This document shows, piece by piece, positions 43,335-64,000 of a DNA stretch of 64,000 nucleotides. The stretch lies in NCBI RefSeq assembly GCF_030867145.1, contig NC_134441.1:9459538-9523537 (forward strand), written 5' to 3'. Below the pieces are notes generated by a model that saw nothing but the letters and a program-made list of their open reading frames with translations, searched no databases and was not told the origin of the DNA. The translations under genes were made by a program, and so were the position numbers. Origin of the DNA: Opisthocomus hoazin (taxonomy: Eukaryota; Chordata; Aves; Opisthocomiformes; Opisthocomidae). How positions within the stretch are numbered: position 1 is the stretch's first letter; every line of letters begins with the position of its first letter.

Positions 43335-43545
43335 GGCAAGGGGTGGAGGCCGCAGAGGGGTGGGAGGCCGGGGGCGAGAGTAGAGGCAGGAAAGAAGTGG
43401 GAGGCCACAGAGGGGTTGGAGGCTGGGGGCAAGGGTAGAGGCCAGAAAGAAAAGGAGGCTGGAAAGGGGTGGGAGGCCGAGGGCGAGGGTAGAGGCCAGA
43501 AAGAAAAGGAGGCCAGAAAGGGGTGGGAGGCCGGGGACGAGGTAC
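43335..43545 (+). repeat. G-rich minisatellite, about 55-bp unit, about four copies
   Basis: The block GTAGAGGCCAGAAAGAAAAG recurs at 43435 and 43489 (54-bp spacing), and a shorter form is at 43379. Units carry GGGGTGGGAGGCC-type cores. It is purine-rich on the plus strand and directly precedes the pyrimidine-rich repeat. The open frames across it are repeat artefacts. Confidence 0.85.
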
Positions 43546-43978
43546 CGCCCTCGCTGTTTAAATTTTCTGTCCGTGTCTTCATTTATTTAGTTTGCTCTCC
43601 CTATTTTTTAATTCTTACCCCCCTTAATCCCTTGGGTTTTCAAATTTGGTTTCTATGTCTGCTTTTATCAAGCTCCCTATCCCTATATTTTATTTCTTTT
43701 CTGTGTGCCGTGCACCCTGTCGCTTTTATAATATACTTGCTATGTCTATTTAGTTTGCCATCCTTATTTTGTACTTTTTTCTCTCAATCACACAGATTTT
43801 AATTCTTTTTACATCTGCTTTGATTTAGTTTTCTGTTTCTCTTTTTTAATCTTTTCCTCTCTTAATTCCCATCACTTTTAAAATTTACTCTCTATGTTTC
43901 TCTTAATTTTGTTTACTGCCCTTATTTTAAAACTTTTTCCTTTATTTTCCTAATTCCTGTCACTTTTAATATTTTCTA

Positions 43979-44599
43979 TGTTGAAGGAAGGGGTTAAAGG
44001 GATTTTAGTAGAAGCAGCCTTGCCTAAGAGGTAAGGAACTTAGTAGAAGCAGCACTGCCTGATAGTTGCTGTGCAGAGAACTGAGGGTGCTCATCTATTG
44101 TGTAAATTAACTGAGGCAGAGTCTTGCATTTCCTTAGAAAGGGGATAATTCCTGATAAGGGCTGGGGAGTCACCTAGAACTCACTAAGACTGACCTTGCA
44201 GTTTGGATGGAAGCCAGAAGAGAACTGAGTTTGCCCAGAAACAAAAGTCAATCAGCGAACACCGTGATGAAGAGGATGAGCCTTCATCTTGGGACCCCCG
44301 ACGACCACCACCAGGAGGCACTGCGCAAGTACAGCTGGGAGGAGTCTATGGAAATTACTCTTTGGAACTGATTTTAATGCAAAGCAGGGATAGGTCATGC
44401 ATATGTATAGGCGGATTGGGAATTTGATGAATATATAATATTTGACTGTATAAATTGAAGAAGCGAGTTACTGTCTGGCACACATGACTTTGGTGGGGCT
44501 ACCCCCCCCCCCCCCCCCCCTCCCTCCCCGTGCTGCCTGGCACCGAATAAACATACCTACTTTACAATCTTACAGATGGTGGAGTCTGTTTTCCGCACA
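43979..44599 (+). mobile_element. Solo LTR of an avian endogenous retrovirus (second family)
   Basis: This 621-bp insertion starts TGTTGAAGGAAGGGG and ends TTTTCCGCACA, with a canonical AATAAA at 44546-44551 about 50 bp before the end and a C19 tract at 44502-44520. The layout (TG...CA ends, promoter-like AT-rich TATATAATATTT near 44431, then AATAAA) is that of a U3-R-U5 LTR. A clean target duplication is not seen, so the borders are approximate. It interrupts the 85-bp repeat. No internal retroviral sequence accompanies it. Confidence 0.75.
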
Positions 44600-44695
44600 T
44601 CAATGTCATCTTTTTTCCAGTTCGCTGTCTGTATTTTTTTCTCCTCTGTCCTTTACGCATTTGCTTTTGAAATGTTATTTCTTTGTCTTTGTTTT

Positions 44696-45104
44696 TGTTA
44701 TAGTTTGGCTGTGGCTGGCAACAATAGGGCCACGATGCTGCTCTGCCGTCCCTCCCCCCACTGGAGTGGGGAGGAGAATAGAAAGAAAAAGGCAAAAACA
44801 CGTGGGTCAGGATAAGGGCAGTTCTAACAGAACAGCAAACAAAAGGAACAGTAACAACAACAATACTGATAAGGAGAATACACAAAACAAATAGCAAAAT
44901 GCACAGAGGGACTCTCACCACCTGCTGCGTGCTCCCGAGCCTCAAGTGACTTCCCACTGCCCAGCTTCCCCGAGCAGAACCCAGCATGACAGCACATGGT
45001 ATGGAATACCCTGTTCTGTTTGGCCAGGTGGGGTCAGCCCGTCCAGCTGTGTCCCCTCCTGGCTCCTAGTGAAAATTAACCCTGTCCTGGCTGAACCCAG
45101 GATA
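44696..45104 (-). mobile_element. Solo LTR, avian ERVL-like, antisense
   Basis: Read on the minus strand it begins TATCCTGGGTTCAGCC and contains GGTATTCCATACCATGTG, both typical of the same bird LTR type as the element at 33.8 kb. Its 3' end reads CTATAACA. A perfect 5-bp duplication GTTTT flanks it (44691-44695 and 45105-45109). At 409 bp it is a short form. The pyrimidine-rich repeat resumes on its right. Confidence 0.85.
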
Positions 45105-45899
45105 GTTTTACTTCACCGTCTGTATTTTTCTTTTTTTTTCCTTTATTGTCTCAATCCTTTTTTAAAAATACCCTTTCTGTGTTTACTTTTATCCCATTTG
45201 CTGTCTTTGTTTTTCAGTTTTCTTGTCTTTCCTTAGTGCCATCGCCTTTAAAATTTTCTTTCTATGTCTACTTTTATCAAGCTCCCATCCCTAGTTTTAA
45301 TTCTTTCTTGTCTGTCATGTACCCTGTCGGTCTTAATGTTTTTTTTTTTTTATGTTTCTATCCAGTTGCTTTTAAACTATTCTTTCTGTGTCTACTTTTA
45401 TCTACCTCACCGTCCCTATTTTTCAATTTTTCACTCTCGCATTCCTATTAGTTTTGAAGTGTTGTTTCTAGATGTACTTTTATCTCATTGTCTCTCCCTC
45501 TTTGTTAATTTTTTCCTGTTTCCCGTATCCCGTCTCTTGTAAAATTTTTGTCCTAGGTCTGCTTTTATCGAGATGTCTCTCCCTGTTTTTTAATTGTTTC
45601 CTGTCTGCCTGGTACCCTGTTGCTTTTAAATTTTCTTTCCTAGTCTGTTATTACCCAGTTCGCCACCTTTCCTTTTCAGTTTGTTCTTGTCCATCCTGTA
45701 CATGGTCACTTTTGTAATTTTCTTCCTATTTCTCCTAGCTATTTAGATTTTTTCTGTTTTAAAATTTTTTCCTCTCTCGATGTCTTCACTTTTGAATTTT
45801 TGTTTCTGTGTTCACTTTCATGTATTTTTCTGTCTCTATTGTCTGCTTTTTTCCTATCTGTCCTCTACACTGTCAATTTTAAAATTTGTTTTTTAAGTC

Positions 45900-46282
45900 T
45901 ACATCCTGGGTTCAGCTGGGCTAGCATGAATTTTCACGAGAAACAGGTCGGGCAAACCCAAACCAGGCGATTGAATGGGACATTCTGTACCATGTGACAT
46001 CACGCTCGGTATTTAAGGGGGCGAGCTGGCTGCAGGAGGGGGATTTGCTAGTCAGGAGGAAGCTGAGCATTGGGCAGCAAGAACACAGCATGCTGTATAT
46101 TCTTTTTATCAGTATTATCGTTGTTATTTTTCTTCTTCCTTTGCCGTTCTGTTAAACTGTTTTGATCGAACTCACAAGTTTTGCCTTTTCCTTCTGACTC
46201 TTCTCCCCGTGCCACCGGGGGTGGGAGAGGAGGGAGAGAGCTACTGCGTGGTTGGTTGTCACCAGCAGGGACCTAACCACAA
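45900..46282 (+). mobile_element. Solo LTR, avian ERVL-like, sense
   Basis: It begins CATCCTGGGTTCAGCTGG and carries the conserved block CATTCTGTACCATGTGAC then ATCACGCTCGG, followed by a TATTTAAG TATA-like box near 46010 and a pyrimidine-rich U5 ending near CTAACCACAA. It is the opposite-orientation relative of the LTR at 44.7 kb. A target duplication is not clear, so the ends are within a few bases. The two copies are too close and inverted to be the pair of one provirus. Confidence 0.82.
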
Positions 46283-47499
46283 TGCTGCCTTTTAGTTTGG
46301 TCTTGCTTTTTTTAAGTTCTTTCCTCTCAATCCCAGGGCTTTTAAATTTTTCAATTTTTATTCCATTTGCTGTATTTTTTTTTTTTTTATTATTTTGTCT
46401 CGTTAGCCCTTGGCACCATCACTTTTAAAATTTTCTTTCTGCATCTCCATTTTAGTTTGCCAATGTTTCTTTTTATTCTTTCCATTTATTTCCCTAACTC
46501 CCCCGCTTTTAAAATTTCATACATTTATCCCAGTTTGTCTTTATTTTACTGTTTTAAATATTTGCTCTGTTTCCTTAGCGCCGTCGCTTTTTAAGTTTTC
46601 TTTCTCAGGCTTTTTCAGTTTGCTGTCTCTATTTTTTAGTTTTTCCCTTTATATTCCTAATGCCCCTCGTATCTGAGTGTTCTACATCTGCTTTTTTCCC
46701 TTCGATGTCTTTATTTTTAATTCTTCATTCTCTTTCCTTAGCGTCCTTTCCTTTCAGATTTTCTACATCTCTGTTTTTGTTTGCTTTCCATATTTTTAAA
46801 TTTTTTCCCCTTTATTTCCCTCATCTCTGTCGTTTTTTAAATTTTGTACTTTTCTCTCATTGGCCGCCTTTACATTTTAATTACGTTTTCTCAGGTTTCC
46901 TTAGCGCCATTGCTTTTTAGATTTTCTTTCTTTTTACATCTCAGTATAATTTCTCGACACTCTTAATTTTGGCTTATTTCCTTAATTTCTTTTATAATGT
47001 TCTGTATAATTTTATCCCGGTTGCTGTAGTTATCTCCCTGTCCTCGTATTTTAATTATTTCCTGTGTTTCCTTAGCACCCTCGCTTTGTAAGTTCTCTTT
47101 CTCTGTTTCTTTTAGTTAGCTGTTCTATTTGTTCATTTTTCCCTTTATTTCCCTAATCCCCCCACTTTTTAAATTTTCTTTTTACACCTGCTTTTATTCC
47201 TTTTGCTGTTTTTTAAAATTATTTCTCGTCCTTTTTTTGTGCTGTCGGTTTTTAAATTTCCTTTCTGAGTCTCCTTTCTAGTCTGCTATCTCTATTTCAT
47301 AATTATTTCCTTTACTTTCTTAATGCCTATCATTTTTTAAATGTTCTTCATACGCCTGCTTTTGTTGCTTTGATGTCTTGAGTTTTAGCTATTTCTTCTC
47401 TTTCTTTAGTGCCCACGCTTTTTAGATTTTCTTTCTGCGTCTGCATTTTAGTTCACCGTCCCAATTTTTCAGGTTTTTTTTCCTCCCTTTTTTTCCAAG

Positions 47500-48300
47500 G
47501 TGGCTGCAGAGGGGTCGGGGGAGGGAGCGATGGGAGCGGTCTTTTTGTCCTCTCCTCCGTCTCGCTCATCTCCAGCGGGTCAGCGTCTCCCTCGGAACAT
47601 CCGTAATCTGTTCAGATCCCCTCCCGAGTACCTTTGTGCCCTTGAGCCACCATCCGTGTCTCCAGCCACATCTGCACCCCTCTATTTCCATCACGATGCT
47701 TCCTGCGAGCGTCCTTGTGTTGCACGGCCATCCTTTGGTTCTACAGCGGGCTTTGTATGTTTCTTATTCGAAAGCGAATCCTCCTCAGGCTTCCATTTCG
47801 CCCCAGAACACATTTACATTGTCTTCCACCACATCGGATGCCTCTGTTTGGTCCTCGGTCCCTCGGGACATCCGTCCTCCATTCGGATCCCTTCCGAAGT
47901 TCCTCATTGTGTTGGTGATCCCCCATTTGGATGCGCGTCTGCATTCCTCTCGCTCCCATCACGACACTTCCCGAGACGGTCCTCGTGCCCCTCGGCACCC
48001 TTTGAGCTCTGCCGCCCTCTTTGTGTCTCCCCAATTTAGACAGAACCCTTCCTTGGGCTTTCCCTGCACCCAGAGCTCTCTTACCTTATTCGCTGCCATC
48101 CAGGATGTCTCCGTTCGGGCGCTCGTCCCCCAAGGACATCCATACATTGCCGGAACACCCTGCGGAGTTTTGCATCGTGTCTGCTCTCCGCATCCCAGAG
48201 ACTTCGTCAATCTCTCTGGCCCCCTCAGGACCGCTCCAATCCCTGTGACGACGCCTCCCATTCTACCAGATTGTTTTTTAAAGCCATTTTTGTGCCCCAG
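47500..48300 (+). repeat. GC-rich tandem repeat, about 270-bp unit, about three copies
   Basis: A phrase of the form CCCTCGG-ACATCCGT recurs near 47595, 47865 and 48129, each followed by related text (CAGATCCC, CGGATCCC and so on) and by CATCACGA blocks, giving a spacing of about 270 bp. Units are diverged. It carries overlapping open frames of 179 and 236 codons (47500-48039 and 47636-48346) and minus-strand frames, but these follow from the repeat composition, and no protein family is recognisable. Confidence 0.65.
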
Positions 48301-48349
48301 AGTGGTATTTTTCTTTTCTGTCTTATCGTATGCTTCTGTTTGGTAGCTG

Positions 48350-49080
48350 GCGCCGTAAAGATGTCCATCATCAGCTCCTATCTCCTCTTTGGTTTTTCAG
48401 AGAAAGCGATAGCCTTCATCTGTTTTTATTGACACATCTCCCGTGGAGTTTTTTTGTTGAGTTTTGCAATTTATTTTTCTTCTGTCTACTTAGGTGTTAG
48501 CTGGGCTGCCTTTGTACTGTTTCCAATATATTCCTTGTATTTCCACCTTTTTTTTTCCATTTTCTGTCCTTTGGGACTCACCTAGCTGTCTTAAGGGAGT
48601 CAGCCAGAGAGACCTTCGAAGCGGGTCTGAATTATCTGCCATTGACGGTAAATAATTCACTTTGCGACCAGAGATATTTTTGAGAAAAAATTATTATGGA
48701 ATCAAATTCTGCTTTGTTATTCAATCCTATCCAGAAAATAGTTCTGGTGGAAGTTAGGTCATATGCCTGGTCTCGCTAGAAACAAAGAGTAAACCCATAG
48801 CATTTTGGATTTTTTTAATAGGAAACCAAAAAGCATAAATTTTGGTAATAACATTGTTACCATATTTAGCAAGCTACTTTCTTACGTACTTTAGTAGGAC
48901 CTCTTTTTCCATCCACACTGCAGAAAAATTAAGTTTAATTACTTACTTGGTCACATCGCTGCTGTGACAGATGTAGTTACAGTAGAAGACCAGGCATCAT
49001 TATTTCCAGTAAGGATTGCCATCTCCAGTCAGTGCTTTTCTCAACGTAAATTTAAGGCAGATGAGAGAACTTGCTGCTGC
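48350..49080. other. Unassigned AT-rich spacer
   Basis: Between the GC-rich repeat and the promoter-like site I see no gene, no recognisable transposon and no clear tandem structure. A few short plus-strand frames begin near 48964 but are not supported. Confidence 0.5.
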
Positions 49081-49119
49081 TCTTCCCGCTGGCTTTATAC
49101 CTTTTGGTGGTTCACCCCT

Positions 49120-49206
49120 CCCCTTTCCCAGGGGAGCGTGGGAAGGGTGGTGGGCGAGGCCAGGAGTATATGAGCCGCAGCTGCCGGGGTGGGAAGCTCA
49201 TTCCAT
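49120..49206 (+). promoter_or_regulatory. TATA-plus-initiator core promoter-like site
   Basis: A C-rich box (CACCCCTCCCCTTTCCC, 49112-49128) is followed by GAGTATATGAG, with TATATG at 49167-49172. It is then followed 33 bp downstream by TCATTCC (A at 49200), a perfect match to the YYANWYY initiator. The surroundings are GC-rich compared with the spacer on the left. It points right, towards two exon-like segments and the large array. This is inferred from motifs only. Confidence 0.5.
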
Positions 49207-49617
49207 TCCTGGCTTTCTTTGGTCTTAGAGCTCTACTCTTCCTTCAGTCAGTTACAGCTTTTGAGCTAAGCTACTTAGAGATATGCATTTTGATATTTAG
49301 AGAAGCGGAGGCCTCTGTTTGAGGTAGGACTTTAAGGATAAGTCAAGGCTCGGCAGCAGCCCTAGTACAGAGTACGTTTAACCACAGCCTTTGTCTTCAG
49401 GTCAGTAATTTTTTATTCAGAGTTTGTGGGCGGTGAGATTGTTTAATAGTATGTGTTGTTCTCTTTATTCTAGGTGCATTACGCTTTCCTGGAACTCCTG
49501 ACTTGATTGAAGATGGAACATTGTGGTTTTTTCACTAGCGGTGCTATTTACTGTGTAACTTGCTGGCACTGCATCTCTTAATCAGATTGACGATGATATT
49601 GTCTGGCAGGGGTTAAG
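49200..49617 (+). ncRNA. Candidate 5' exons of a spliced transcript reading into the array
   Basis: From the inferred start at 49200, a first exon could run to 49323, where GAG is followed by GTAGGAC. A second exon-like segment, 49474-49617, is framed by CTTTATTCTAG and by GTGAGTG, a near-consensus acceptor and donor. The 144-nt segment has stops in all frames I checked, so a coding role is unlikely. Together with the promoter-like site, this resembles the start of a non-coding RNA whose later exons would be the array modules. No transcript evidence is available from sequence. Confidence 0.4.
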
Positions 49618-49623
49618 GTGAGT

Positions 49624-50230
49624 GTCTTCTACACATTTGTGCAGAGATCGAGAGTTTCTCAAGCGAGTGGCAGGGTTGTGACACGTAGTGTCTTTCAGAG
49701 CATGGAATGGCTCGTCACCTTTACCAATTGCTCAGTGGATCACATCACCCCTGGAAACTTTGCGGCTCGTGGCGGGCCCCTCATAGATTATAAGCGTTGG
49801 GGCTTCACTTACTTTGTGGTCCTGTAGCAGATCCCCGAGGCTGCGGGAAGGCGTAATGTGGGAGATGCCTACAGAACACAGGGCATGGTTTGGAAGAAAG
49901 GCTCCCGAGGAGCGGCCGATGCGGGGAGTTTAGGGGTGCAAATACAGGGAAGCGGCTGTCGGGAGGGGGTGTGCGGTTCCTTCTTTGCCAGTTCAGAAGA
50001 AGAGAAGAGTTTCTAAAGCTTTGAGATGGGGGGATGGTTGAGGAAGCGAGGAGGGTTTATTGGTTTCTCTGAGTTTAGTTTTGCAGTCTCCATGGGATAT
50101 CAATGAGGTTCATTTTGTTTGAGTCTCTCTGCTGCTGGCGGGGAGCTATGGCAAAGACACAGGAGATGAAACGCAAACCCTCTGGGCCTCCACATCTGAA
50201 GATGGAGGGCCCAACGTCAGGCCTTTGAAC
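49624..50230 (+). other. Spacer between candidate 5' exons and the array
   Basis: This stretch shows no repeat of the array landmarks and no recognisable gene. A possible acceptor TCTTTCAG lies at 49692-49699 but has no matching donor nearby. Similarity to the array becomes visible from about 50230 (GGTGTTAAGGCTTGTATGTG). Confidence 0.4.
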
Positions 50231-50411
50231 CTCAAGGGTGTTAAGGCTTGTATGTGAAGAGCTTAACGTTCTTTTGCTTTTGATTTTGTTTTTTTTGTAA
50301 CGGCAGGTTGTAGTTGGACTCTGGGTGGCATTTCTGAATGGAAACAAGACTTCTGGAATTCCTAAGCTATTGGTCAGTACTGGGATGACTTCTACAATAT
50401 GTTTTTTGCAG

Positions 50412-52225
50412 ATGCAGAGGAATGAGCCGTGCGCCAAAGGGTGACAGAGGAGAGGTGAGCGGAGTGTCATAAGAAGGTGGGTTCGCATGTGATGTTGGAG
50501 GGTAGATGTGACTGGTGGCTATAGGACTAGCTTTTAGGTTTTGATTTGTGGGTGTTTTTTTTTTTTTTAAATTTGAAGGCGCAAAGCGGGTTTACGGGCA
50601 GCAGAGGTGACTCGGGCAAGGTGAGCTGTGACTAGCAGCCTGCAGTAGCAGTTAATGTTCAGGTGTCTTATTGTTGGCAAAGCTACAAGCTTTTGCAGGG
50701 GCCTTTGGCATTGGTCCAATGTTTGAGGTGAGCCAAGGCGTTAGTGAGGAGGAGCATGGGGCGGATGATTTCTCAGCAGCGCAACGGTAATTTTGTCTCT
50801 TAGTATCTTGGGATATCAAGAGCGATGAGGACTGCAGCATCCCATTCTGGACCCGGCAGGTGTGTGGAGAATCCTGGTGCTTCTGAGGACGGGGATGTTG
50901 TGGAAGGTGTTGCATTGGCCAGCTTGATGCTTACTGTCAGAACTGTGTTTGGGTTTTCTTTTTTTGCAGAGGAGGAAGCGGAACCTGGCGACTGCAGGAG
51001 CATCCCAGATAGCCGATGCGTTTTCTGTTGAGGATGGGTTTAGAACCGTGTCCCTCTGAAAGCGAAGTAGAGGGATCAGGGCCCGGGGAGGGTCTGTAGG
51101 GAGGGGACCACGGTTGGGCATTGTGGGGAGGGCTTGCGAAGTTAGCATAGGGGAGTAGGCTGTCCCGGAACAGGCCCCTTTGGGCCAGTAAAGGGAAGGG
51201 GTTTCTCTTAAGCCCCGGCGGGCAGGGCAGTTCCGGCCTGTGTCTGTGGTGTTGTGTTGTTTGTGTGGTCCGTCTTATGCATCTTAAAACTTACCTGGGT
51301 CTCCAGTTCTTCATTGGTCTTTGTGCTCAATGAGCATCTTAGGTACATCAGGTGCCATCCCTAGGGTCTCGAATGCCTGTGGTCAGTGGCATACTGTCAA
51401 TTGGGCGATTCTTTTATTTCCCTGTGAGCGTAAAGCGTGGATCGGTGTCACATCTCACAAGTTTCTGGTTGGTTCTCATTTGCGGCATCATTCCTGGCTG
51501 TGTCAGCCACTCTGCTCTGTACCAGTCCATTTTCACAGACAGTGGGACTTCTTCCTTGCATCCTTACATTCTTAGGTCTTGAAGCCGGGCTTCTCGTGCA
51601 TCCGTCATCTGTGTTGACCGTAACTTCTTGTAAGGGCCTCTTGCATTGTCTGTTTTTCTGGGGCTGCCGTAGCGCCTCCTTGCTCTGGGCCATCACGGCC
51701 CCATAGGTCTTCTTGCCTGACAGCGTTTCCCACTGGGGAGTCATTCTTCTTGCAGAGAGTTTTCTCTCTTCTTTGAATCACATGTGTGGTGGTGTGTGTA
51801 CTATTGGTCTGTGCCTGTGTGTTGTCTTGGAGCTGCTCTGTCCAGGGGTGTGAAGTCAGGGGTAGAAGGAATAGCGATAGGAAGCTGCGGTTAATATGTC
51901 GATAGGCCTAGACGGTTGCGGCAGAGGTTGGGCAGCGAGCTCGCAGGGAGCAGCCATCGGCAGGCTGCGTGGTCTGTCATTTGAACAGTGGTTAGAGGAG
52001 GTGCTGGGAGCTGCGTGGGAGGGGTCGATCAGCAGCAGCAAAGGAGCTTGAATCTGGACAGCGTTCTGGCTTGTATGTGTGGGGCTTGAAGTCTGGCCCT
52101 TTTTTCATTTATTTAGTGGCAGGCTGCAGTTGCACTGCAGATAGTATTCCAAAATGGAATCAATACATCTGGAACAGCTAATGGCTTGAGCAGCATCCAG
52201 GTGACTTTTTCAATGTTTTTTTCAG
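50412..52225 (+). repeat. Array unit 1 (first, partly deleted)
   Basis: Modules seen: E1 50412-50476 (CAG before, GTGGG after), E2 50579-50620 (GTGAGC after), E5 50699-50727 (shortened to 29 nt), E6 about 50811-50859 (acceptor decayed to TTG, donor GTGTG) and E7 from 50970 (TTTTTTGCAG before). E3 and E4 are missing, so the E2 intron runs straight into the E5 acceptor. In the tail, E8 follows CATTCTTAG near 51575 and ends at GTAAGGG near 51630. As the array edge it is more worn than the middle units. Confidence 0.7.
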
Positions 52226-54363
52226 ATGTTGGGGGACAAGATGGGCACAGAGGACCAATGGAGGCATTGAACAGATTGCTCTATGAAGGTGGATGGGCGC
52301 ATAGCGTCAGAGGGAAGGATGCATTTGGTGGCTATGTGACTGCATTATGGTTGGTGGGTTTTTTCCCCAATGTTGTAGGTGCAAAGAAACAAGCAAAGCA
52401 GGATATGGGCACCAGGGGTGTCTTGGTCAAGGAGAACAATGAAGTAGTAGGCTACAGTAGCAGTTACTGTTCTGGTAGGGTATTGTCATTGAAGTTATCA
52501 ACATCCCTTATTTGTGGTTTTTCAGGTGGTACCAGAGCCTTGAGGTGGCAACATGTAAACAGCAGGGGCGACACAGGCGAGCAGCCAAGGTGAAGGAGCA
52601 AAAGATGGGAATCGGTGCGGGCAGGCTGCAATTTTGGCAGTATCTCAGCATGTGTCTTCTACTTTGTTTTCTTTGCAGGTGTGACGTGGTCTCGGACGTG
52701 CAAAGCAGCATGCTGACAAGAGATCTGACAAGGTGAGGAGGTCGCGTGTCGGATCAGGGTCTTGGAGCAAAGTATCATACGGCTCCTCAATGACGCGTAT
52801 CTCTTTTGGTTTTGCAGGGGCTGTGCGGCCCGCCTTTGGCACTAGACCAGTGTTTGAGGTGAGTCGGGGTGGTGGCAAGGACATGCCTGGGGCAGGTGAT
52901 TTCTCAGCAGTGCAACTGTAATCTTGTGTCTCTTGGTATCTTAGGTTAGCAAGAGCAACGAGGGCCGCAGCATCCCATTCTGGACCCAGCAGGTGAGCAG
53001 AGAATCCCAGTGCTTCTGAGGGAGATGCTATGGATGATGTTGGTGTTGGCCAGCATGATGCTTACCATCAGAACTGTTTGTGGGTTTTCTTTTTTGCAGA
53101 GGAGGAAGCGGAACCTGGTGAGTGCTGGAGCATCCGGTTAGCTGATGCGCGTTCATGTTGAGAATGGATTCAGACCCTCGACTCTCTAAAAGCTAAGTTG
53201 AGGGATTGGGGAGGGTCTGGAGGGACGGGACCACAGTTGGGCATCGCAGGGAGGGCTTGTGAAGTTAACGTAGGGGATAGGGCTGTGCAAGAGCGGGCCC
53301 CTTTGGGCATGTAAAGGGAAGGAAGGGGTTTGTCTTCAGCCCAAGTGAGCAGGGCAGTTCCAGCCCGTGTCTGTGGTGCTGTGTTGTTTGTGTCGTCTGT
53401 CTTCTGTGTCTTAGACTTTACCAGGGTCTCAACATCCTTGTTGTTCTTCACAGTCAAGGAGCACGTTATGCACATCAGGCACCACCCTTGGGGTATTGAA
53501 TGCCCCTACTCATTGGCATAGTGCCAATTGGGCGTGTCTCTCCTTGCCTTACAAGCATAAATCACGGATCGATCTCACGCCTCAGAGGTTTCTAGTCGGT
53601 TCTCTTTTGCGGTGTTCCAGGCTGTGCCGGCAGGTCTTCTCTCTACCGGTCCATTTTCATGGACTGTCGGACTTGTTCCCTGCATCCTTACCATCTTAGG
53701 TCTTGAAGACGGGCTTCTTGCACATCCATCGTCTCCATTTTGACCGTAACTTCTTGTAAGGGACCATTGGGTTCTCCTGTTTTTCTGAGGCTCCTGTGGA
53801 GCCTCCTCGCTCTGGGCCATTGCAGCCCTTTAGGTCTCCTTGTCTGACAGCTGCTCTGGTCCAGCAGTCATTGTTCTTGCAGAGAGTTTTCTCTCTTCTT
53901 TGAATCTCATTGTTTGTGGTGTTGTGTGTAATGTTGGTCTGTGCCTATGTGTGTTTTGGCTTGGAGCTGCTCTGCCCAGCGGCGTAGAGTCAGGCATAGG
54001 TGTCATAGCGATAAGAGGCTGTGGTTAATAGGTCGGACAGGCCTAGACTGTTTAGGCAGAGGCTGGGCAGTCCGCTTGAATGGAGCGGCCATCAGCAGGC
54101 AGTGTGGACTCTCATTTCAACAGTGTTTTACAGAGATGACTGGAGTTGTGTAGGAGGGGCTGATTGACGGCAGCAAAGCGGATTGAATCTCAACAATATT
54201 CAGGCTTCTATGTGTGGGGTCTAAAGTTTTGTCCTTTTTCCATTGTTTTTTCTTAGTGGCAGTCTAGAGTTGGCCTCTAGATGGTATTCTGAAATCAAGC
54301 AATAGAGCTGGACTCTAAGTTCTTGGTCAGCCTTCGGGTGACACGTTTATTACTTTTTTGCAG
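52226..54363 (+). repeat. Array unit 2 (long type, most complete modules)
   Basis: Modules: E1 52226-52288, E2 52379-52431 (donor GT lost), E3 52526-52589, E4 52679-52732, E5 52818-52858, E6 52945-52992 and E7 53100-53117. Acceptors read TTTTTTTCAG, TGTTGTAG, GGTTTTTCAG, TTCTTTGCAG, GGTTTTGCAG, GGTATCTTAG and TTTTTTGCAG. Six of the seven donors are GTG-type (GTGGAT, GTGAAG, GTGAGG, GTGAGT, GTGAGC, GTGAGT). The introns are about 85-110 nt. Tail module E8 is 53700-53755, between CATCTTAG and GTAAGGG. This unit shows the splice-like design most clearly. Confidence 0.75.
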
Positions 54364-56068
54364 TTGCCTGTGGACAAGATGGGCACCAAAGAGCCATGGA
54401 GGTGACGAGATGTGCACCAAAAGAAGGTGAGTTGGTGCATGACAGCAAGGGAAGACGTGACCGGTGGCTACATGACTCCACTTAGCTGGTGGTTTGTGAG
54501 TTATTTTGAAGGTGCAAAGGAATAAGCGCAGTGAGATATCGGCACCAGCGGTGACCTCAACAAGGTGAGCTATGACCAGTGGGCTGAAGTATCAGTTACT
54601 TTTCAGGAGTCATATTGTTGGTGAAGCTATAAGCGTCCTTTGTTTGTGTTTCGTAGATGGTACCTAAGCTGCAGCATGGCAATATGTAAATGGCAGAGAA
54701 CACAGGTGAGCAGCCAAGGTGTAAAGGCTGGGAGATGGCAGTTGGTGTGGGTAGACTGTGTGGTCTTGGGCAGCATCTCAGCGTGTCTCTCTTTGCTGTG
54801 ATTGTTGCAGATACCGCATGCAGACTCAGAGGGGCATGACAACATGCTGACCGGAGGTCTGAGAAGGTGAGGCGATTGTGTGCTGAGTCAGTGTGCAAGA
54901 GCAAATTATTGTGCAGCAACTCAGTGAAGCGTATCTCTTAGTTTTGCAGGGGCTGTGTGGGCCGCCTTTGGCATTGGACAAGCTCTTGAGGTGCGTCAGG
55001 GTGGCAGTGTGGGGTGGGTGACTTCTCATGGGCGCAATAGTAATTTTGTCTCTTGGTATCTGAGCTAGCAGAAACGATGATGGCTGCAGTGTCTGACTCG
55101 GGAACGAGCAGGTGAGCAGAGCACCTGGGTGCTTCAGAGGAGGGGGTTGTTGTGGAAGAGGTTGGTCTTGGCCAGTGTGATGCTTACTGTCAGCACTGTT
55201 TCTGGGTTTTTCCCTTTTCAGATAACAAAGCAGAACCAGGCGACTGCAGGAGCTTCCCAATTAGCCAATGTGCTTTTTTTGAGGATGGATTCATACCCCC
55301 GGCCCTCCAAAAGCTAAGCCGAGGGACTGGAGGGAGGGGACCATGGCTGGGAATTGCAGGGAGGGCTTGTAAAGTTAGCGCAGGGGAGAGGGCTGTCCAG
55401 GAGCAGGTCCCTTTGGGCATGTAAAGGGAAGGAAGGGGTTTCTCTTCAACCCAGGTGGCCAGGGCAGTTCCAGCCTGTGTCTGTGGTGCTATGTTGTTTT
55501 GGTGGTGTGTCTTGTGTCGCAGACCTTCCTCTGGTCTCCATGTCCTTGTTTCTCTTTGCACTCACAAAGCTCATCATGTGCCTCCGTGCCATACCTGGGG
55601 TCTTGAATGCGTGTACTCATTGGCATAGTGCCAGTTCAGCTCTTCTCTTCTTGCTTTAGAAGTGTAAAGCATGGATCAGTCTTGCATCTCTCTTTTGTGG
55701 CGGCGTTCCAGGCTGTGCCAGCAGCTCTTCTCTCTTCTGGTCCATTTTTCTGGACTGTGGGACTTCTTCCCTGCATCCTTATGCTCTTAGGTCTTGAAGC
55801 CGGGCTTCTTGCACATCCATCGTCTCCATTTTGACCGTAGCTTCTTGTAACGGACCATTGTGTTCTAATCCGGTTTTCTGGGGCTGCCGTGGAGCCTCCT
55901 CGCTCTTGGCCATTGCGGCCCTGTCGGTCTCCTTGTCCAACAGCGTCTCCCGTCAGGGAGTCATTCTTATTGTGGAGGAGTTTTCTCTCTTGATTCCCAT
56001 TGTTTCTGGTGTTGTGTGTAATGTTGGTCTGTGCCTGTGTGTGCTTGCCTTGGAACTGCTCTGCCCAG
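54364..56068 (+). repeat. Array unit 3
   Basis: Modules: E1 54364-54427 (TTTTTTGCAG before, GTGAGTT after), E2 54512-54564 (acceptor decayed to TGAAG, donor GTGAGC), E3 54657-54718 (with an internal alternative donor GTGAGC at 54705), E4 54811-54866, E5 54950-54990 (donor GTGCGT), E6 about 55065-55111 (acceptor TGAG) and E7 from 55222. The unit ends at 56068, where the tail joins a remnant of E3 directly, making the next interval short. A plus-strand frame of 101 codons (55354-55659) and longer minus-strand frames lie in the tail. Confidence 0.7.
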
Positions 56069-57900
56069 GGAAACCAGGGAATCCATAAATGGCAGGGGCA
56101 GAGCGGGTGAGCAGCCAAACAAAGGAGCAGGAGATTGGAATGGATGCAGGCAAGCTTTGTTTTTGGGCGGTATTTCAGCACGCGCTGTTTGCTTTGATTT
56201 TATTGCAGGTGCCGCACATATCCTCAGAGGGGCGAAGCAGCATGCTGACAAGAGGTCTGAGAAGGTGAGGTAGTTGTGTGCCGGGTCAGTGTGTGAGAGC
56301 AAATTATTGTGCAGCAGCTCAGTGAGGGGTGTCTCTCTTGGTTTTGCAGGGGCTGTGCGGGCTGCCTTTGGCATTGGACAACTGTTTGAGGTGAGCTGGG
56401 GTGGCAGCGAGGAGGAGCGTTCAGCGTGTGACTTCTCACGGGCATAATAGTAATTTTGTGTCTGTTGGTATCTGATGCAGCAGAAGTGATGATGGCGAAG
56501 CGTCCGACTCTGGAACGAGCAGGTGAGCAGAGCACCCTAGCTCTTCTGAGGAGGGGGTTGTTGTGGAAGAGGTTGGTCTTGGCCAGTGTGATGCTTCCTG
56601 TCAGCACTGTTTCTGGGTTTTTTCCTTTTCAGATGACAAAGCAGAACCAGGCGAGTGCAGGAGCTTCCCAGTTAGCTAATGTGCTTTTTTTTCGAGGATG
56701 GATTCAGACCCCTGGCCCTACAAAAGCTAAGTCGAGGGACTGGGGCTGGAAGAGTTTGGAGGGAGGGGAACACGGTTGGGCATTGCGGGCAGGGCTTGTA
56801 AAGTTAGTGTAGGGGAGAGCTGTGCAGGAGCGGGCCTCTCTAGGCATGTAAAGCGAAGAGGTTTCCCTTCATCCTTGGACTAGTATGGGCAGGGCAGTTC
56901 CAGCCTGTGTCTGTGGTGCTATGTTGTTTTTGTGGTGTCTTCTGTGTCGTAGACCTTCCTCTGTTCTTGATGTCCTTGTTTCTGTTTGCACTCAAGAAGC
57001 TCATCAGGTGCCTTGGATGCCATCTCTAGGTCCTCAAATGCCTGTACTCCTTGGATAGTGCCAACTGGGAGGTTCTCTTCTTGGCTTACAAATGTAAAGC
57101 ATGGATCAGTCTTGTGTCTTGAAAACTTCTGGTCAGTTTTCTTTGTCGGTGTCGTTCCAGGCTGTGTCAGCAGCTCTTCTCTCTACCGGTCCGTTGTCAT
57201 GGACTGTGGGAGTTTTTCCTGGAATCCTTATGCTTTTAGGTCTTGAAGACGGGTTTCTTACACATCCATCGTCTCCATTTTGACCATAACTTCTTGTAAG
57301 GGACCATTGGGTTCTCCTGTTTTTCTGAGGCTGCCATGGAGGCTCCTCGCTCTCGGCTGTTGCGGCCCTGTCGGTCTCCTTGTCCGACAGCTTCTCTCGT
57401 CCGGCAGTCATTGTTCTTGCAGAGAGTTTTCTCTCTTCTTTGAATGCAGTTGTTTGTGGTGGTGTGTGCAATGTTGGTCTGTGCCTGTGTGTTTTGGCTT
57501 GGAACTGCCCTGCCCAGGGGTATAGAGTCAGGGGTAGGTGTCATAGCGACAAGAGGCTGTGGTTAATAGGTGGACAGGCCTAGACTGTTTAGGCAGAGGC
57601 TGGGAAGTGAGCTCGGATGGAGCGGCCTTCGGCAGACGGTGTGGACTGTCATTTCAACAGTGTTTTACAGAGGTGATGGGAGTCTTGTGGGAGGGGCTGA
57701 TCATCAGCAGCAAAGCAGATTGAATGTTGACGGTGGTAAGGCTTATGCATGGGGGGGCCTTTAAGTTTGGCCCTTTATTCCTTTATGTAATGGCAGGCTG
57801 TATTTTGAACTCTAGGCGCTATTAGAAAATGGAATCAATACATCTGGAATTGTTAATGTCTTTAGCAGCATATGGGTGACTTGTTCAATACTTATTTCAG
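56069..57900 (+). repeat. Array unit 4 (short type, lacks E1-E2)
   Basis: A deletion of about 0.7 kb removes the end of the preceding tail together with E1 and E2, so the tail text TGCTCTGCCCAG runs into an E3 remnant (CCAGGGAATCCATAAATGG). Modules: E4 56209-56264, E5 56350-56390, E6 56481-56522 (42 nt, using a TGATGCAG acceptor) and E7 from 56633. Its own tail is complete and includes E8 between TGCTTTTAG and GTAAGGG (57240-57296). Confidence 0.7.
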
Positions 57901-59661
57901 GTGCCAGGGAACAAGAAGGGCACCAAAGACCAATGCAGGCGCCGAGCAGAGCATCGTTAGGAGGTGGGTTGGCACGTGGTGTTGAAGGGAAGACATGATC
58001 AGTGGCTATAGGACTGCCTTACAGTTGGTGTGGTGTTTTTTTCCAGTATTGTAGGTGCAAAGCAACGAGTGAAGCATGATATCGGCACCAGGGGTGACTC
58101 AGGCAAGGTGAGCAATGAGTAGTAGGCTGGAGTAGCAGTTATTTTTCTGGAGTGCTGTTGTTGGTGAAATTACCATCATCCCTCTTTGTGTTTCCCAGGT
58201 GGTACCTGAGCCTCAGCATGGCAACATGTAAATGTCAGGGGCAACATGGTTAAGCAGCCAAGGTAAAGGAGCAGGAGGTGGGAATCAGTGTGGCAGATGG
58301 CAGTTTTGGGCAGTATCTCAGCGTGTGTCTTCTGTTTTCTTTTTGTAGGTGCCACACATAGTCCTGAAGGGGCAAAGCAGCATGCTGACAAGAGGTCCGA
58401 GAAGGTGAGGTGGTTGTGGACCGGGTCAGTGTGTAAGAGCAAAGTACTGTGCAGCAACTCAGTGAGATGTCTCTGTCTTGGTTTTGCAGGGGCTGTGCGG
58501 GCCGCCTTTGGCATTGGATAAGCTCTTGAGGTGAGTCGGGGTGGCAGCGAGGAGCGTAGGGCAGGTGACTTCTCACGGGTGCAATGATCATTTTGTGTGT
58601 CTTGGCATCTTAGGTTGCAGAGGCGATTATGGCTGCAGTGTCCGACTCCGGAAAGAACAAGTGAGCAGCAGAGCATCCTGGTGCTTCTGAGGAGGGGATT
58701 GTTGTGGAAGAGGTTGGTCTTGGCCAGTGTGATGCTTACTGTCAGCACCATGTGTGGTCTGTGATGTCCTCATCTTTTCCTCTTTTTCAGATGACGAAGC
58801 AGACGTGTTGACTGCAGGAGCATCCCATTTAGCCAACATGCTTGTTGTCGAGGATGGATTCAGACTCCTGGCTCTCCAAAGGCTAAGTCGAGGGACTGGG
58901 GCTGGGAAGGGTTTGGAGGGAGGGGACCACAGTTGGGCATTGCGGACAGGGCTTGTAACATTAGTGCAGGGGAGAGGGCTGCGCAGGAGCGGGCCTCTCT
59001 GGGCACAGAAAGGGACCGAGTTTCCCTGCATCCTAGGACTAGCATGGGCAGGGCAGTTCCAGCCTGTGTCATCTGTGCTATGTTGTTGTTGTGGTGTGTC
59101 TTGTGTCACAGGCCTTCCTCTGGTCTCGATATCCTTGTTTCTCTTTGCACTCACAAAGCTCATCATGTGTCTCCGTGCCATACCTGGGGTCTCGAATGCG
59201 TGTACTCATTGGCATAGTGCCAATTCAGGTCTTCTCTTCTTGCCTTACAAGCGTAAAGCGTGGATCAGTCTAGCATCTTTCTGCTGCGGCATCGTTCCAG
59301 GCTGTGTCAGCAGCAGCTCTTCTCTCTTCCGGTCCATTTTTATGGACTGTGGGACTTCTTCCCTGCATCCTTATGCTCTCAGGTCTTGAAGCCGGGCTTC
59401 TTGCACATCCATCGTCTCCATTTTGACCGTAACTTCTTGTAACGGACCATTGTGTTCTAATCCGGTTTTCTGGGGCTGCCGTGGAGCCTCCTCGCTCTGG
59501 GCCATTGCGGCCCTGTCGGTCTCCTTGTCCAACAGCGTCTCCCGTCAGGGAGTCATTGTTCTTGCGGAGAGTTTTCTCTCTTCTTGAATCCCATTGTTTT
59601 TGGTGTTGTGTGTAATGTTGGTCTGTGCCTGTGTGTGCTTGCCTTGGAACTGCTCTGCTCA
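57901..59661 (+). repeat. Array unit 5 (long type) with a 211-codon open frame
   Basis: Modules: E1 57901-57963, E2 58055-58107, E3 58199-58262, E4 58349-58404, E5 58490-58530, E6 58614-58660 and E7 from 58791. Acceptors are CAG or TAG after pyrimidine runs, and donors are GTGGG, GTGAGC, GTAAAG, GTGAGG, GTGAGT and GTGAGC. Module spacing is 154, 144, 150, 141, 124 and 177 bp. From the E6-E7 intron into the tail a plus-strand frame runs 58754-59389, 211 codons. Minus-strand frames of 184-191 codons overlap the same DNA, so I do not call it coding. E3 has stops in all three frames here. Confidence 0.72.
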
Positions 59662-61480
59662 GGGCAACCAGGGAATGCGTAAATGGCAGGTCCAGGGTGG
59701 ATGACTAGCTAAGGTACAGGAGCAGAAGGTTGGGATTGATGCAGGCAAGCTTTGGCTTTCGGCAGTATCTCAGCATGCGCTGTTTGCTTTGATTTTATTG
59801 CAGGTGCCGCACATATCCTCGGAGGAGCAAAGCAGCATGCTGACATGAAGTCTGAGAAGGTGAGGCAGTTGTGGGCCCGGTGAGCGTGTGAGAGTAAATT
59901 ATTGTGCAGCAACTAAGTGAGGGGTGTCTCTCTTGGTTTTGCAGGGGTTGAGTGGGCCGCCTTTGGCACTGGACAACTGTTTGAGGTGAGCTGGGGCAGT
60001 AGCAAGGAGGAGTGTGAGTCGGGTGACTTCTCACGGGTGCAATGATCACTTTGTGTCTCTCGGTATCTCAGGTATCGCGAGCAACGATGGCTGCAGCGTC
60101 CGACTCTGGAATGAGCAGGTGAGCAGAGCACCCAGTTCTTCTGAGGAGGGGGTTTTTGTGGAAGAGGTTGGTCTTGGCCAGTGTGATGCTTACTGTCAGC
60201 AGTGTTTCTGGGTTTTCTCTTTTTCAGTGGTGAAGTGCAACCTGGTGACTGCAGGAGCATCCCAGATACCTAATGCATTTTTGGTCGAGGTTGGATTTAG
60301 AGCCCACGTCCCTCTGAAAGCTAAGTCCAGGGGCTTGGAAGGGTCTGGAGGGAGGGGACTACAGTTGGGCAGTTCAGGGAGAGCTTGTGAAGCTAGTGTA
60401 GGGGAGAGGGCTGTCCAGGAACAGGCCGCTTTGGGCGGATCAAGGGAAGGGGTTTTTCTGTAGCCCGAGGGGGCAGGGTAGTTCCAGAACTGTGTCTGTG
60501 GTGGTGTCATCTGTGTGGTCTGTGTTTTGTGTCTTGGATTTTACCTGTGTCTCAACATCGTCATTGCTCTCTGTGCTCCATGAGCACATTATGCATATCA
60601 GGTGCCATTCCTAGGGTCTGGAATGCCTGTACTCTTTGGCATAGTGTCCATTGGGCGCTTCTCATCTTATGTTTTTCACATAAAGCATGGAGCGGTGTCA
60701 CATCTTGGAAGTTTCCCATCAGTTCTCTTTTGCGGTGTCATCTCAGGCTGTGTCAGCAGCTCTTCTCTCTTCCGGTCCATTTTCATGGACTGTGGGACTT
60801 CTTCCCTGCGATCTTGTGTTCTTAGGTCTTGAAGCCAGCTTCTTGCAGATCCATCGTCTCTGTTTAGAGCGTAACTTCTTGTAACGGAGCATTCTGTTCA
60901 ACTCTGCTCTTCTGGGGCTGCCGTAGAGCCTCCTCGTTCTGGGCCACTGTGGCCCTGCTGGTCGTCTTGCTGGACAGCATCTCCCGTTGGGAAGTCATTC
61001 TTGTCGCCGAGAGTTTTCTCTGTTCTTTGAATCCCATTGGTGGTGGCGGTGTGTGTAATGTTGGTCTGTGTCTCTGTGTGTGTTTTGTTTCGTGCTTTTC
61101 TGCCCAGGGGTGTAGAGTGAGGGTTACTTGGCATAGCGATAGGAGATCATGCTTAATCTGTTGATAGGCCTCGACTGTTCAGGCAGCGGTTGGGTAGTGA
61201 GCTCGCATGGAGTTGCTCCTTGGCAGGCTGTGCAGTCTATCATTTCAATGGTGTTTTGAACTGATGATGGGAGCTATGTGGGAGGGGACGATCAGCAGTG
61301 GCAAAGAAGACTGAATGTTGACAGCGTTCAGGCTTGTAGGTGTGGGGCCTCAAGTTTGGGTTTTTTGGGGGGTTTGTTTTAAATAGCAAGCTTCTGTTGG
61401 ACTCCAGACGGTATTCCAAAATGCTACCACTATTGCTGGCCTTCCTAAGTTACATATCGGCAACTGGGTATCTTGTGGAA
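59662..61480 (+). repeat. Array unit 6 (short type, lacks E1-E2)
   Basis: It carries the same tail-to-E3 deletion junction as unit 4 (CTGCTCTGCTCAG then CCAGGGAATGCGTAAATGG), showing that units 3+4 and 5+6 are copies of one dimer. Modules: E4 59804-59859, E5 59945-59985 (41 nt), E6 60072-60118 and E7 from 60228. Plus-strand frame 60014-60463 crosses modules and introns and is not called coding. The tail continues to about 61480 and is more divergent than the others. Confidence 0.7.
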
Positions 61481-61489
61481 GGGAGCGGT

Positions 61490-61960
61490 CTTTGCTAATG
61501 TGATGCTTCCAGTCAGTAATGTTAGTGAGGCGTGTGCGTTTATATATGTTATGCAGATACTGATGTAGAACACGTGGAATGCAGGAGCATCTGATTTTAT
61601 GATGTGCTCAATGAGGATGGATTCTGCATCCTTCCCTCAAAGGTAAGTCCAGGGCCAAAGCTGTGGGTGGGGTGAGGCCGGCAGGAGGTGTAACACCAGG
61701 GTTGCGGAGGGAGCTATTTAGGGTCTGTTAAGTTTGGGGCGGACAGAGGTCCTGGCATCTGTCCTTTAGGGTGTGACTGTTCTGGCCTGTGTGTCTTTCC
61801 CAGTGTCATTTGTGTTGTGTGATTAGTCTTGTATGTGATGCTTTGTACAGGTATCTACCTTCTGCGCTCTTGTGCACTTTGGTCGGTGTGCACTGGGTGT
61901 CTCAAGCTTCTCTGCTTTGGCCTAGAGCCTTGGTCAAGCGTTCCTCATCTTGCGACCGGA
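61490..61960 (+). repeat. Decayed terminal array unit (unit 7)
   Basis: Only the part around E7 is recognisable: TGTGATGCTTCCAGTCAG near 61498, acceptor TATGCAG, then an E7-like segment 61557-61642 ending in a near-perfect donor GTAAGTCC. In the other units the same place reads CTAAGTC or CGAAGT. After it, tail phrases such as TTCTGGCCTGTGTGTC are still visible to about 61810. This fits decay at the array edge, or a preserved ancestral splice site. Confidence 0.6.
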
Positions 61961-62240
61961 GCTTAAGGTGCGGTTTTCATCAGAGGTCTTTCTGGAGAGT
62001 CCCCTTTGCGGAGGTGATCTAGGCCACCGTGAAAGCTCTGCTCGTGGCAGTTCTGCTACCATAGAGTTCCCCTGCAGCATTTCATCTCTGCCTCGTTACG
62101 GGCTCGGGTCTTACATCCTGGCTTCTCAGAGCTCCGTATTGGTTTTGACCACCATCTGCGACTGCATCGTTTTGCAGCGTTTTGTGTTCTTTTTAACTGT
62201 ATTATTATGGCTCGTATCGTATGCCACGTGAGTGTCTCGC
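61960..62240. other. Unassigned spacer right of the array
   Basis: Nothing recognisable. A 93-codon plus-strand frame (61950-62231) exists without family features. Confidence 0.4.
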
Positions 62241-63050
62241 ACCGAATAGTCCTTTATTGTTTGTTGTATTGCCGTGCTCTATTTCTATTGAATTGTACGG
62301 CCCTGTATTTCTTTCTCGTAGCACTGTTGTTTGTTTTGTATTGCCTTGTATTGCTCTGTATTGTTGTTGTGTTGTAGTGCTCTATATTTGATATTTTATT
62401 TCAATGTTTGGGCGTGTTGCACTGCAGCACGCACTACTTGCGTGGACCGCTATCGGAGACTGTATTGCCTTGTATGAACTTGTACTGTGTTTTGTAATGT
62501 GGAGCTCTGTATTTGAATATGTATAGGCTTGTATAGCCGCGTATTGTTTTTTTCTTGTGGATCTCTGTATTTGATCTAGCATTGCATTGTTTGTGTCTGT
62601 ACCGGTCTTGGATTGCAGCGCTCCGTACTTGTAGCGAGCGATACCTGGGACCGTCTTGCATCGCACGGCTCTGTACTGTGTTTTGTATTGCATTGCATCA
62701 ATCTGTACTTGTATCGAATGTTACCTGAGAGCATCCCGCTTTGTATGATGCTGTATTGCGTTTTTGTACTGCAGCACTCTGTACTTGAATTTGCATTGCA
62801 GCGCTTGTGTGCGTATCGATCTGGCATTGCAGTGCTCTGTATTTGTAGTCTCTGTTCTCGGAGACTGTCTTGCCTTGTAATGAGGGCCGTGTTGCGTTTT
62901 GTAACGTGGAGCTCTGTATTTACTGGATTTTGCATTGCATTGTATATCTCTGTGTCAGTCTTGCGTTGCAGCGCTCTTTATGGACGCTCTCTGAGACGGT
63001 TAAGCATTGTATGGGTCCGTGTTGCGGTTTGTCTTGTCGGTTATGTAAGA
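62240..63050. repeat. Degenerate tandem repeat, about 45-bp subunit with TGTATTGC cores
   Basis: Phrases such as CTTGTATTGC, GCAGCGCTCTGTACTTG and TTTTGTAATGTGGAGCTCTG recur through the block. Larger similar segments with CGGAGACTGTATTGCC-like text start near 62450, 62631, 62717, 62846 and 62982, so spacing is irregular at about 85-180 bp and built from smaller subunits. It is GT-rich on the plus strand and strongly diverged. Its units do not resemble the large array. Confidence 0.65.
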
Positions 63051-63059
63051 GCGCGTTGC

Positions 63060-64000
63060 ATCGTATGGCATTAATCTTGCCAGTGTTCTCCGGTTCTGCG
63101 TTTAAGTCCATATGGTATGGCATTGCGGTGTCAGGGTAGAGGCCGGGAGCGACTCAGAGGTCTTTACGCACGTGAGATGGAGTCAAGCCGATCGCAATTG
63201 GATCGAGAGCTAGCATGAGGTAAATTTGTAACTCGGCAATGTCTTTCCTATTGGCTTTGCAGGCACTTTGCAGCAAGCCTCCAGAAACAGTCGAGATGAG
63301 GTCTGAGGTGCAGCGTGACGGGCCTCAGCAGTCGGTTGCTTCGGTGCTCATCAGTTATTAGGATGCTCTGGAATTCTTAATTGTCACAGAGGACTCTGAC
63401 TGTAAATCTTGGTTTTGGAGCGGAGCTGCAGAGGGCCATCTTATATTCTGGGTGCGGTGTCTGTTAAGGAGGCTCGTGTTCTGTTTTCGCATGTGACAGA
63501 GCAGCGCGAGGCGCTTGTAGAGCATCAGGCATATTGTCATCGTACTGCAATCGCAGCAGCTGACAGCAGTGTCTATGCAAGTTTGAGTTACTGACATGGC
63601 GCCAGTCGAGCAGATCTCGTTTCACGGAATGATGTGCCAGGGCAGCGCCACTAGACGGATCTAGCATCATTTGTGCACTAGGCTAGTCTGCTGTGCAGCT
63701 TGGGCTTTACCAGCAGGTGTTTCCTCGCTGACTGTTCTCGACAGCTCTCCCAGGGGTTTATTTCCTGCGGCATCCTAGTTCCTTTGTTTGTGTGGCATTT
63801 AGTCTCCATCGATTACTGTGACTGAATCCCCTGCCTTTTAGCCAAAACTGAGGTGCTCTCGAGGCAGGGCACACCAGAGGGTCCCTGCCACCTAGCCTCA
63901 GCACTGTTCTGTTTATTGTCAGGCTGCGTATCTCGGTGTAGCAGTAACAGTCCCCTGTGTGGTAGTCTGGTGTCCCAAGGTCACGTCTGTAGAGAGCGTG
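63060..64000. other. Unassigned sequence to the window end
   Basis: No gene, RNA gene or transposon is recognised. A splice-like pair (donor GTAAATTT at 63220, acceptor TTGGCTTTGCAG ending 63262) would bound an intron of only 43 bp, too short for normal vertebrate splicing. Confidence 0.4.

Follow-up and report, generated by a model that had tools for sequence, protein, structure and literature searches.

A multi-copy subtelomeric family of predicted telomere-ward, spliced long non-coding RNA genes in Opisthocomus hoazin, a candidate precursor of avian TERRA

Introduction

In lampbrush oocytes of birds the telomere repeats are transcribed toward the chromosome end (PMC3648425), and many birds bear giant terminal RNP aggregates (GITERA) on the ends of their lampbrush chromosomes, which show up as SC35 domains and contain poly(A)+ RNA in pigeon (PMC7151628, PMC5114574). 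The passages cited from these papers do not identify the promoters or the RNAs that underlie the two phenomena. Here we analyse a stretch of 64,000 nucleotides, the window, which is the final 64 kb at the right end of a 9.52-Mb contig of Opisthocomus hoazin (C28; NC_134441.1, positions 9,459,538 to 9,523,537). At 50.4-61.6 kb, on the + strand, it carries a tandem array of mini-exons. From the sequence, this array is probably the body of one member of a multi-copy family of predicted subtelomeric, telomere-ward spliced long non-coding RNA (lncRNA) genes, and the family is a candidate precursor of avian telomeric repeat-containing RNA (TERRA). The family provides a promoter and predicted exons at a large number of chromosome ends, with sequences for probes, and makes the questions of the promoters and of the RNAs both directly testable. 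In the open-licence literature we found no title or abstract opening describing this gene, which does not prove its absence there.

The family resembles TERRA in its subtelomeric promoter, its telomere-ward orientation, the sense of the TTAGGG strand and its occurrence at many ends. The cited passages place the start of some human TERRA at 1-2 kb from the repeats and describe a CpG-rich, apparently TATA-less 61-29-37 element that acts at roughly half of human ends (PMC3928237), whereas in the family the promoter is of the TATA type, lies about 21-29 kb from the telomeres that were read and precedes a predicted large multi-exon body. GITERA share with the family the position at chromosome ends, and their SC35-positive domains fit a splice-site-rich RNA; unlike the family they are a cytological structure, for which the cited passages name no RNA (PMC7151628, PMC5114574), and a link between the two is conjectural. 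PO41 of chicken and quail is also a subtelomeric non-coding RNA of birds, described as a 41-bp tandem repeat with both strands transcribed, on lampbrush loops without small nuclear RNAs (PMC4301066); the family differs by its exon-bearing units of 1.4-2.1 kb, with splice sites on one strand. The LL2R lumpy-loop transcript, compared by its description only, is likewise a case of non-coding tandem-repeat transcription tied to a ribonucleoprotein domain, but it maps to chicken chromosome 2 (PMC7151628).

Copies of the gene and their orientation at chromosome ends

The mini-exon array is part of a longer gene, whose TATA/initiator promoter lies at 49.12-49.20 kb. The 39-mer promoter core (49121..49159, + strand; six copies aligned) was searched for in the genome assembly (1.48 Gb, 415 contigs) with up to 3 mismatches. 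This gave 123 copies including that of the window, 62 forward and 61 reverse, and the reversed control gave none. A first-pass annotation of the window had proposed an amplification in tandem; we find it to be larger than claimed, since the whole gene, and not only its units, is multi-copy. Positions and orientations rest on 100 listed copies of the 123, two of them on contigs without a length. Among these, 51 are on contigs of at least 5 Mb: 40 lie within 100 kb of an end and every one faces that end, while 6 of the 11 interior copies point toward the nearer end. Twenty-eight of the 40 are at 7.2-34.8 kb and represent 28 ends on 25 contigs, the one on C2 carrying the variant core GGGGACTGTGGG. 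This variant is found in every one of the remaining 12, which lie at 61-92 kb. The contigs below 5 Mb whose length is known hold 47 listed copies, 41 of them no farther than 100 kb from an end and 6 farther in (3/6 toward the nearest end). Where small contigs have readable telomeric repeats, the gene points toward them, in some cases across the contig to its far end.

Eighty-nine contig ends were read, among them 60 starts irrespective of orientation; right ends were taken where a + copy faces them. Telomeric repeats were present at 21 ends, and in 21/21 the nearest copy faces them, with TTAGGG on the sense strand. The polarity of TERRA, i.e. a unit directed toward the telomere with TTAGGG as sense, is therefore that of the predicted unit, which is directed at the end in 40/40 listed copies near ends of large contigs and faces the repeats at 21/21 telomeric ends read. 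Among the right ends of large contigs with a + copy, 10/11 are TTAGGG arrays (14-16 hexamers per 100 bases), and at these ten the promoter is 20.8-28.6 kb from the end; the right end of C1 stops inside the gene. CCCTAA arrays accompany - copies at the starts of C6, C27, C43, C197, C269, C237 and C310, TTAGGG arrays accompany + copies at the ends of C161 and C230, and C395 and C128 have degenerate TTAGGG at theirs. The remaining 68 of the 89 ends, which are satellite, other sequence or N, are uninformative. On C128 the gene is followed by a 61-bp satellite, which runs in one direction for about 2 kb and in the opposite one for about another 3 kb, and then by TTAGGG-type repeats, the last 1.5 kb containing 137 TTAGGG and no CCCTAA.

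Searching the genome with unit 2 of the array gave at least 65 matches on 11 other contigs. The copy at 29.9 Mb of C4 matches 47534-64000 at about 91% (83-94% per 500-bp step) and lacks 2145 bp, equal to one unit. Those of C1 (2.8 Mb), C230, C128 and C395 are about 90% identical to 52832-64000, and the promoter part is common to all. C230 differs by 1.0-1.4% from C128, C395 and C1, with 114 differences in 11136 sites for the pair C230-C128. A 36-mer of the fifth mini-exon (E5) has 406 genome copies (control 0); among the 100 listed, its spacing on C5, C6 and C23 is about 1.45/2.12 kb. At 26.7-41.1 kb of C24, again among the 100 listed, the distances between E5 copies are multiples of 1440 bp, which we read as an expansion of the short unit in its own right, probably a younger one.

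Splice grammar of the mini-exon array

The array consists of six diverged units and one remnant, all on the + strand. Unit 2 (52226..53192), unit 3 (54364..55313) and unit 5 (57901..58882) contain E1-E7; the E2 donor is lost in unit 2, and unit 5 has the best splice grammar of any single unit. Unit 1 (50412..51062) has E1, E2, E5, a weak E6 and E7 without E3-E4, and no AG stands at the place homologous to the E6 acceptor. The short units 4 (56068..56724) and 6 (59665..60317) lack E1-E2 and hold an E3 remnant followed by E4-E7, and the unit 7 remnant (61557..61642) is an E7 with its donor GTAAGT intact. Approximate sizes are 63-65 nt for E1, 42-53 for E2, 62-64 for E3 (49 if the stronger donor of unit 3 is used), 54-56 for E4, 41 for E5 and 42-48 for E6. 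As first described, E5 is exactly 41 nt in 5/6 units, the exception being unit 1 with 29 nt. At the shared homologous place, E7 has a GT donor in unit 7 only (61642), where units 1-6 read CTAAGT or CGAAGT; an upstream GT is present in unit 2 (53117) and, weakly, in unit 6, so that the end of E7 may differ in units 1-6 from that of the partial unit 7. Unit spacing alternates between about 2.1 and 1.4 kb (lags 2140, 1440 and 3580), and introns are mostly 75-130 nt. The array initially delimited at 50412..61642 is real, whereas its span was drawn too narrowly: homology to other copies extends from before the 49.1-kb promoter to the contig end at 64000.

Splice sites were scored with matrices built from general vertebrate frequencies, not with MaxEnt. 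In 50400-61700 we observed 13 strong acceptor-donor pairs 25-100 nt apart on the + strand, five of them chained, and none on the - strand; 100 dinucleotide shuffles of the region gave a mean of 0.5 pairs, a maximum of 4 and none chained. The earlier argument that chance AG/GT pairs would not line up in this way thus stands when both strands are scored against shuffles. Because the units are repeats of each other, each was also tested alone. Units 1-6 contain 3, 2, 2, 2, 4 and 2 strong pairs, counts reached by 1, 8, 7, 10, 0 and 4 of 500 shuffles, respectively, and the - strand has none in 6/6 units.

Conservation of the sites between units was also measured. The invariant bases reported for unit 2 are confirmed (acceptors AG 7/7; donors GT 6/7, the E2 donor being GA). 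At hand-picked sites AG/GT is kept in 44/47 cells vs 499/833 elsewhere. Since hand-picking biases this count, the comparison was repeated with a single unit supplying the sites, selected there by score. With unit 2 as reference, GT is kept in 15/19 vs 114/222 and AG in 14/14 vs 199/303, and with unit 3 in 11/11 vs 128/232 and 10/10 vs 224/328. The two blocks of unit 5 gave 9/9 vs 129/250 (GT) and 14/14 vs 227/334 (AG) for block B, and 5/6 vs 42/96 (p 0.071) and 8/8 vs 70/103 (p 0.053) for block A. Exon bodies are not clearly better conserved between units than introns, so the units retained splice signals rather than exon sequence, which, if the gene is what we propose, would make it an unusual lncRNA.

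Promoter, first exons and 3' part of the gene

A TATA-type box, TATATGA (49167..49173, + strand), follows the core in a GC-rich promoter block. The box is also found in 4/5 other copies examined of the type of the window (A copies), C4 having CATATGA in its place, and in a second gene described below (B gene). An initiator-like TCATTCC, whose A at 49200 lies 33 bp past the start of the box at 49167, opens a tentative first exon (49200..49323, + strand) with a weak donor, GAG/GTAGGA; its position is inferred. The next exon, of 144 nt (49474..49617, + strand), has an acceptor of 13.3 bits and a donor of 12.4 bits, and is present in 6/6 A copies examined. On the 3' side of the gene, a TG-rich degenerate repeat tail resembling TGTATTGCAT (62200..63050, + strand) is about 92% identical between the window and C4. 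The 3' part then runs on the + strand to the contig end (63051..64000), where C128 continues with its 61-bp satellite and TTAGGG-type repeats. Downstream of the promoter, no sense AATAAA/ATTAAA was found in the window, C128 (19.4 kb, reaching as far as its TTAGGG-type repeats), C230, C395 or the B gene.

A second gene and the age of splice-site constraint

A gene of the same plan, the B gene, lies farther in on C5 (56001-65000) and has the variant core; it is the inner copy that was read. It has TATATGA 32 bp before the initiator, a homologue of the 144-nt exon and mini-exon units. It is 25% diverged and, in long matches, 72-77% identical to the window; identity is 0.92 in the promoter, 0.88 in the 144-nt exon and 0.66 in the long part; most of the B 5' part, introns included, is at 0.72-0.88, and the promoter identity is high and not unique. 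GT/AG is kept at 11/11 hand-listed sites and, by score class, at 12/13 vs 226/367 (p 0.018; GT alone 0.16, AG alone 0.085). Over the older divergence, between units and between the window and the B gene, splice sites are kept and a coding signal is absent, as expected of a spliced lncRNA.

Possible transcription toward the telomere

Transcription, splicing, arrival at the telomere and any function of the family are what we infer from these features. RNA polymerase II would start at the TATA/initiator promoter and transcribe toward the telomere, and the 144-nt exon would be spliced to dozens of exons of 41-65 nt across introns that measure about 75-130 nt. As the sense strand of the telomere-side copies read has no AATAAA/ATTAAA, the transcript would run through the 61-bp satellite into the TTAGGG repeats and give a G-rich RNA of TERRA polarity, and exchange between chromosome ends would keep some copies nearly identical. 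That the RNA does reach the TTAGGG repeats has, in our judgement, somewhat less than an even chance.

The 61-bp satellite of C128 reverses its orientation midway (L015:1371-6551), and a read-through RNA over it could form a kb-long hairpin. On the centromere side of the gene of C230 there is a GC-rich satellite of about 20 bp, gagcccccaggaccccaaca (L013:1-2440), and satellites of this type also stand at the starts or ends of several unplaced contigs.

Alternative explanations

A repeat-domain protein-coding gene, now or until recently, would explain that E1-E6 sum to 324 nt in unit 5, that the third spliced frame of this unit has one stop in 138 codons, and that the amino-acid similarity of E7 in frame 2 is reached by 18/300 permutations. 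Such a gene should show a third-position excess and an open frame, and neither was observed. Substitution rates at the three codon positions of E4-E6 are equal (0.22/0.22/0.22), each of the three spliced frames has at least one stop in 7/7 units, and 4/4 unspliced array frames match no Pfam family (spliced peptides were not searched). We rejected this explanation as highly improbable, and the first reading of the array as a non-coding, many-exon transcript agrees with these rates and with the excess of splice pairs over shuffles. Genes that host small nucleolar RNAs (snoRNAs), such as GAS5 and the SNORD116 hosts, have many non-coding exons and tandem cassettes. The family shares this outline, and between units intron 6 is conserved better than any other intron (769/894), as could be expected if short introns carried snoRNAs or microRNAs. 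Against this, Rfam gave no match at gathering score, and at E up to 5 in 42000-64000 only a single lncRNA hit below threshold, which falls on a poly-C run at 44498. A C/D snoRNA scan of 49200-63999 found no candidate inside the array and a single one at 63629-63731, H/ACA snoRNAs, novel ones included, and microRNAs not being scanned for separately. Low z values from folding of the alignments are scattered over both strands, and gaps may inflate them. With its short introns, the array does not bear out the likeness to repeated host genes suggested at first, and we consider a host gene for snoRNAs or microRNAs there very unlikely and rejected a structured RNA as well.

The main competitor of the proposed gene family is a passive subtelomeric duplicon, in which an ancient lncRNA gene, formerly at work, was spread among chromosome ends by telomere exchange and is slowly decaying without present function, though maybe still transcribed. 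The two overlap, and the difference is present function. Several observations weigh against the proposed family here. Strong splice dinucleotides show no better retention than the others when loci that split recently are compared (window-C4, GT 17/22 vs 653/778 and AG 26/31 vs 634/722; window-C230, 17/19 vs 563/696 and 19/24 vs 534/620; window-C1, 17/19 vs 573/698 and 18/24 vs 542/620), so that the site retention expected of a spliced lncRNA is not seen over this recent divergence. An apparent 3' splice-site constraint between loci disappeared against a pyrimidine-rich control (p 0.135, 0.67 and 0.64). Exons are as divergent as introns, and strong exon pairs, of which the window has 18, number 7-10 in each of the other five A copies examined. 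On contigs below 5 Mb, only 17/41 listed copies within 100 kb face the nearest end; moreover, uniform orientation is expected, without any selection, of any duplicon spread by end-to-end exchange, as is the near identity of C230 and C128. The absence of poly(A) signals is weak evidence, 10, 38 and 92 of 200 shuffles reaching zero for C128, the window and B, and interior copies do have sense AATAAA/ATTAAA (three in C4, one in C1). In favour of more than decay, the 18 strong exon pairs of the window and the 7 of B persist, with none on the - strand of either, and the promoter core is 92% identical between the two where the long part is at 66%. Copy number, core position and orientation, promoter and splice grammar and non-coding evolution are features of the DNA itself. 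Given the lack of recent splice-site constraint, the fewer pairs elsewhere and an orientation that exchange can explain, our claim for the family is one of older selection on splicing, with present function unproven; a passive duplicon is a real possibility, toward which we do not lean. The family could also provide the scaffold of GITERA, a nascent RNA crowded with splice sites that retains splicing factors at chromosome ends. End position, splice-site density and the SC35-domain masses described in the cited passages for chromosome ends of many birds (PMC7151628, PMC5114574) fit this, but GITERA are rich in poly(A) whereas sense poly(A) signals are absent here, and we regard it as unlikely. 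Equally doubtful is a dedicated bird telomere gene, in which two paralogous TATA-driven, splice-site-dense lncRNA genes, present at many chromosome ends and all facing the telomere, would give avian TERRA by read-through and build GITERA from their nascent transcripts loaded with splicing factors; the mini-exon array would then recruit the splicing machinery and encode no product.

Flanking sequence and other observations

Two chance reading frames matched 2 and 19 metagenome or ENA proteins in protein searches, and a search of viral and GTDB genome contigs with one array frame found no relative. Of the 21 proteins, four have 96-99% identity with the window or C230 and the remaining 17 have 53-87% with the loci compared; we take them as bird DNA in the samples, other species being possible.

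In the rest of the window, IKBKB was matched by a translated piece on the + strand near 5 kb, and DNA polymerase beta (POLB) by translated pieces on the - strand. The first POLB exon presumably lies near 41.8 kb. The array lies beyond POLB, on the side of the contig end and on the opposite strand. A putatively CR1-like frame at 61-753, without a Pfam match, and the mixture of large and small contigs are in keeping with a bird genome.

Before the promoter, 43500-48400 is a long degenerate pyrimidine-rich repeat region, interrupted near 43984-44600 and 45900-46300 by insertions that by eye resemble long terminal repeats. Part of it is found again near the C1 copy (66%), and a similar pyrimidine-rich stretch sits after the B gene. 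A 54-bp tandem repeat at 43345-43542 has an inverted match beside the B gene on C5 (69-81%). On the + strand of the window G exceeds C from about 49 kb to the end and T exceeds A throughout, a skew that could have been left by left-to-right transcription and is suggestive only.

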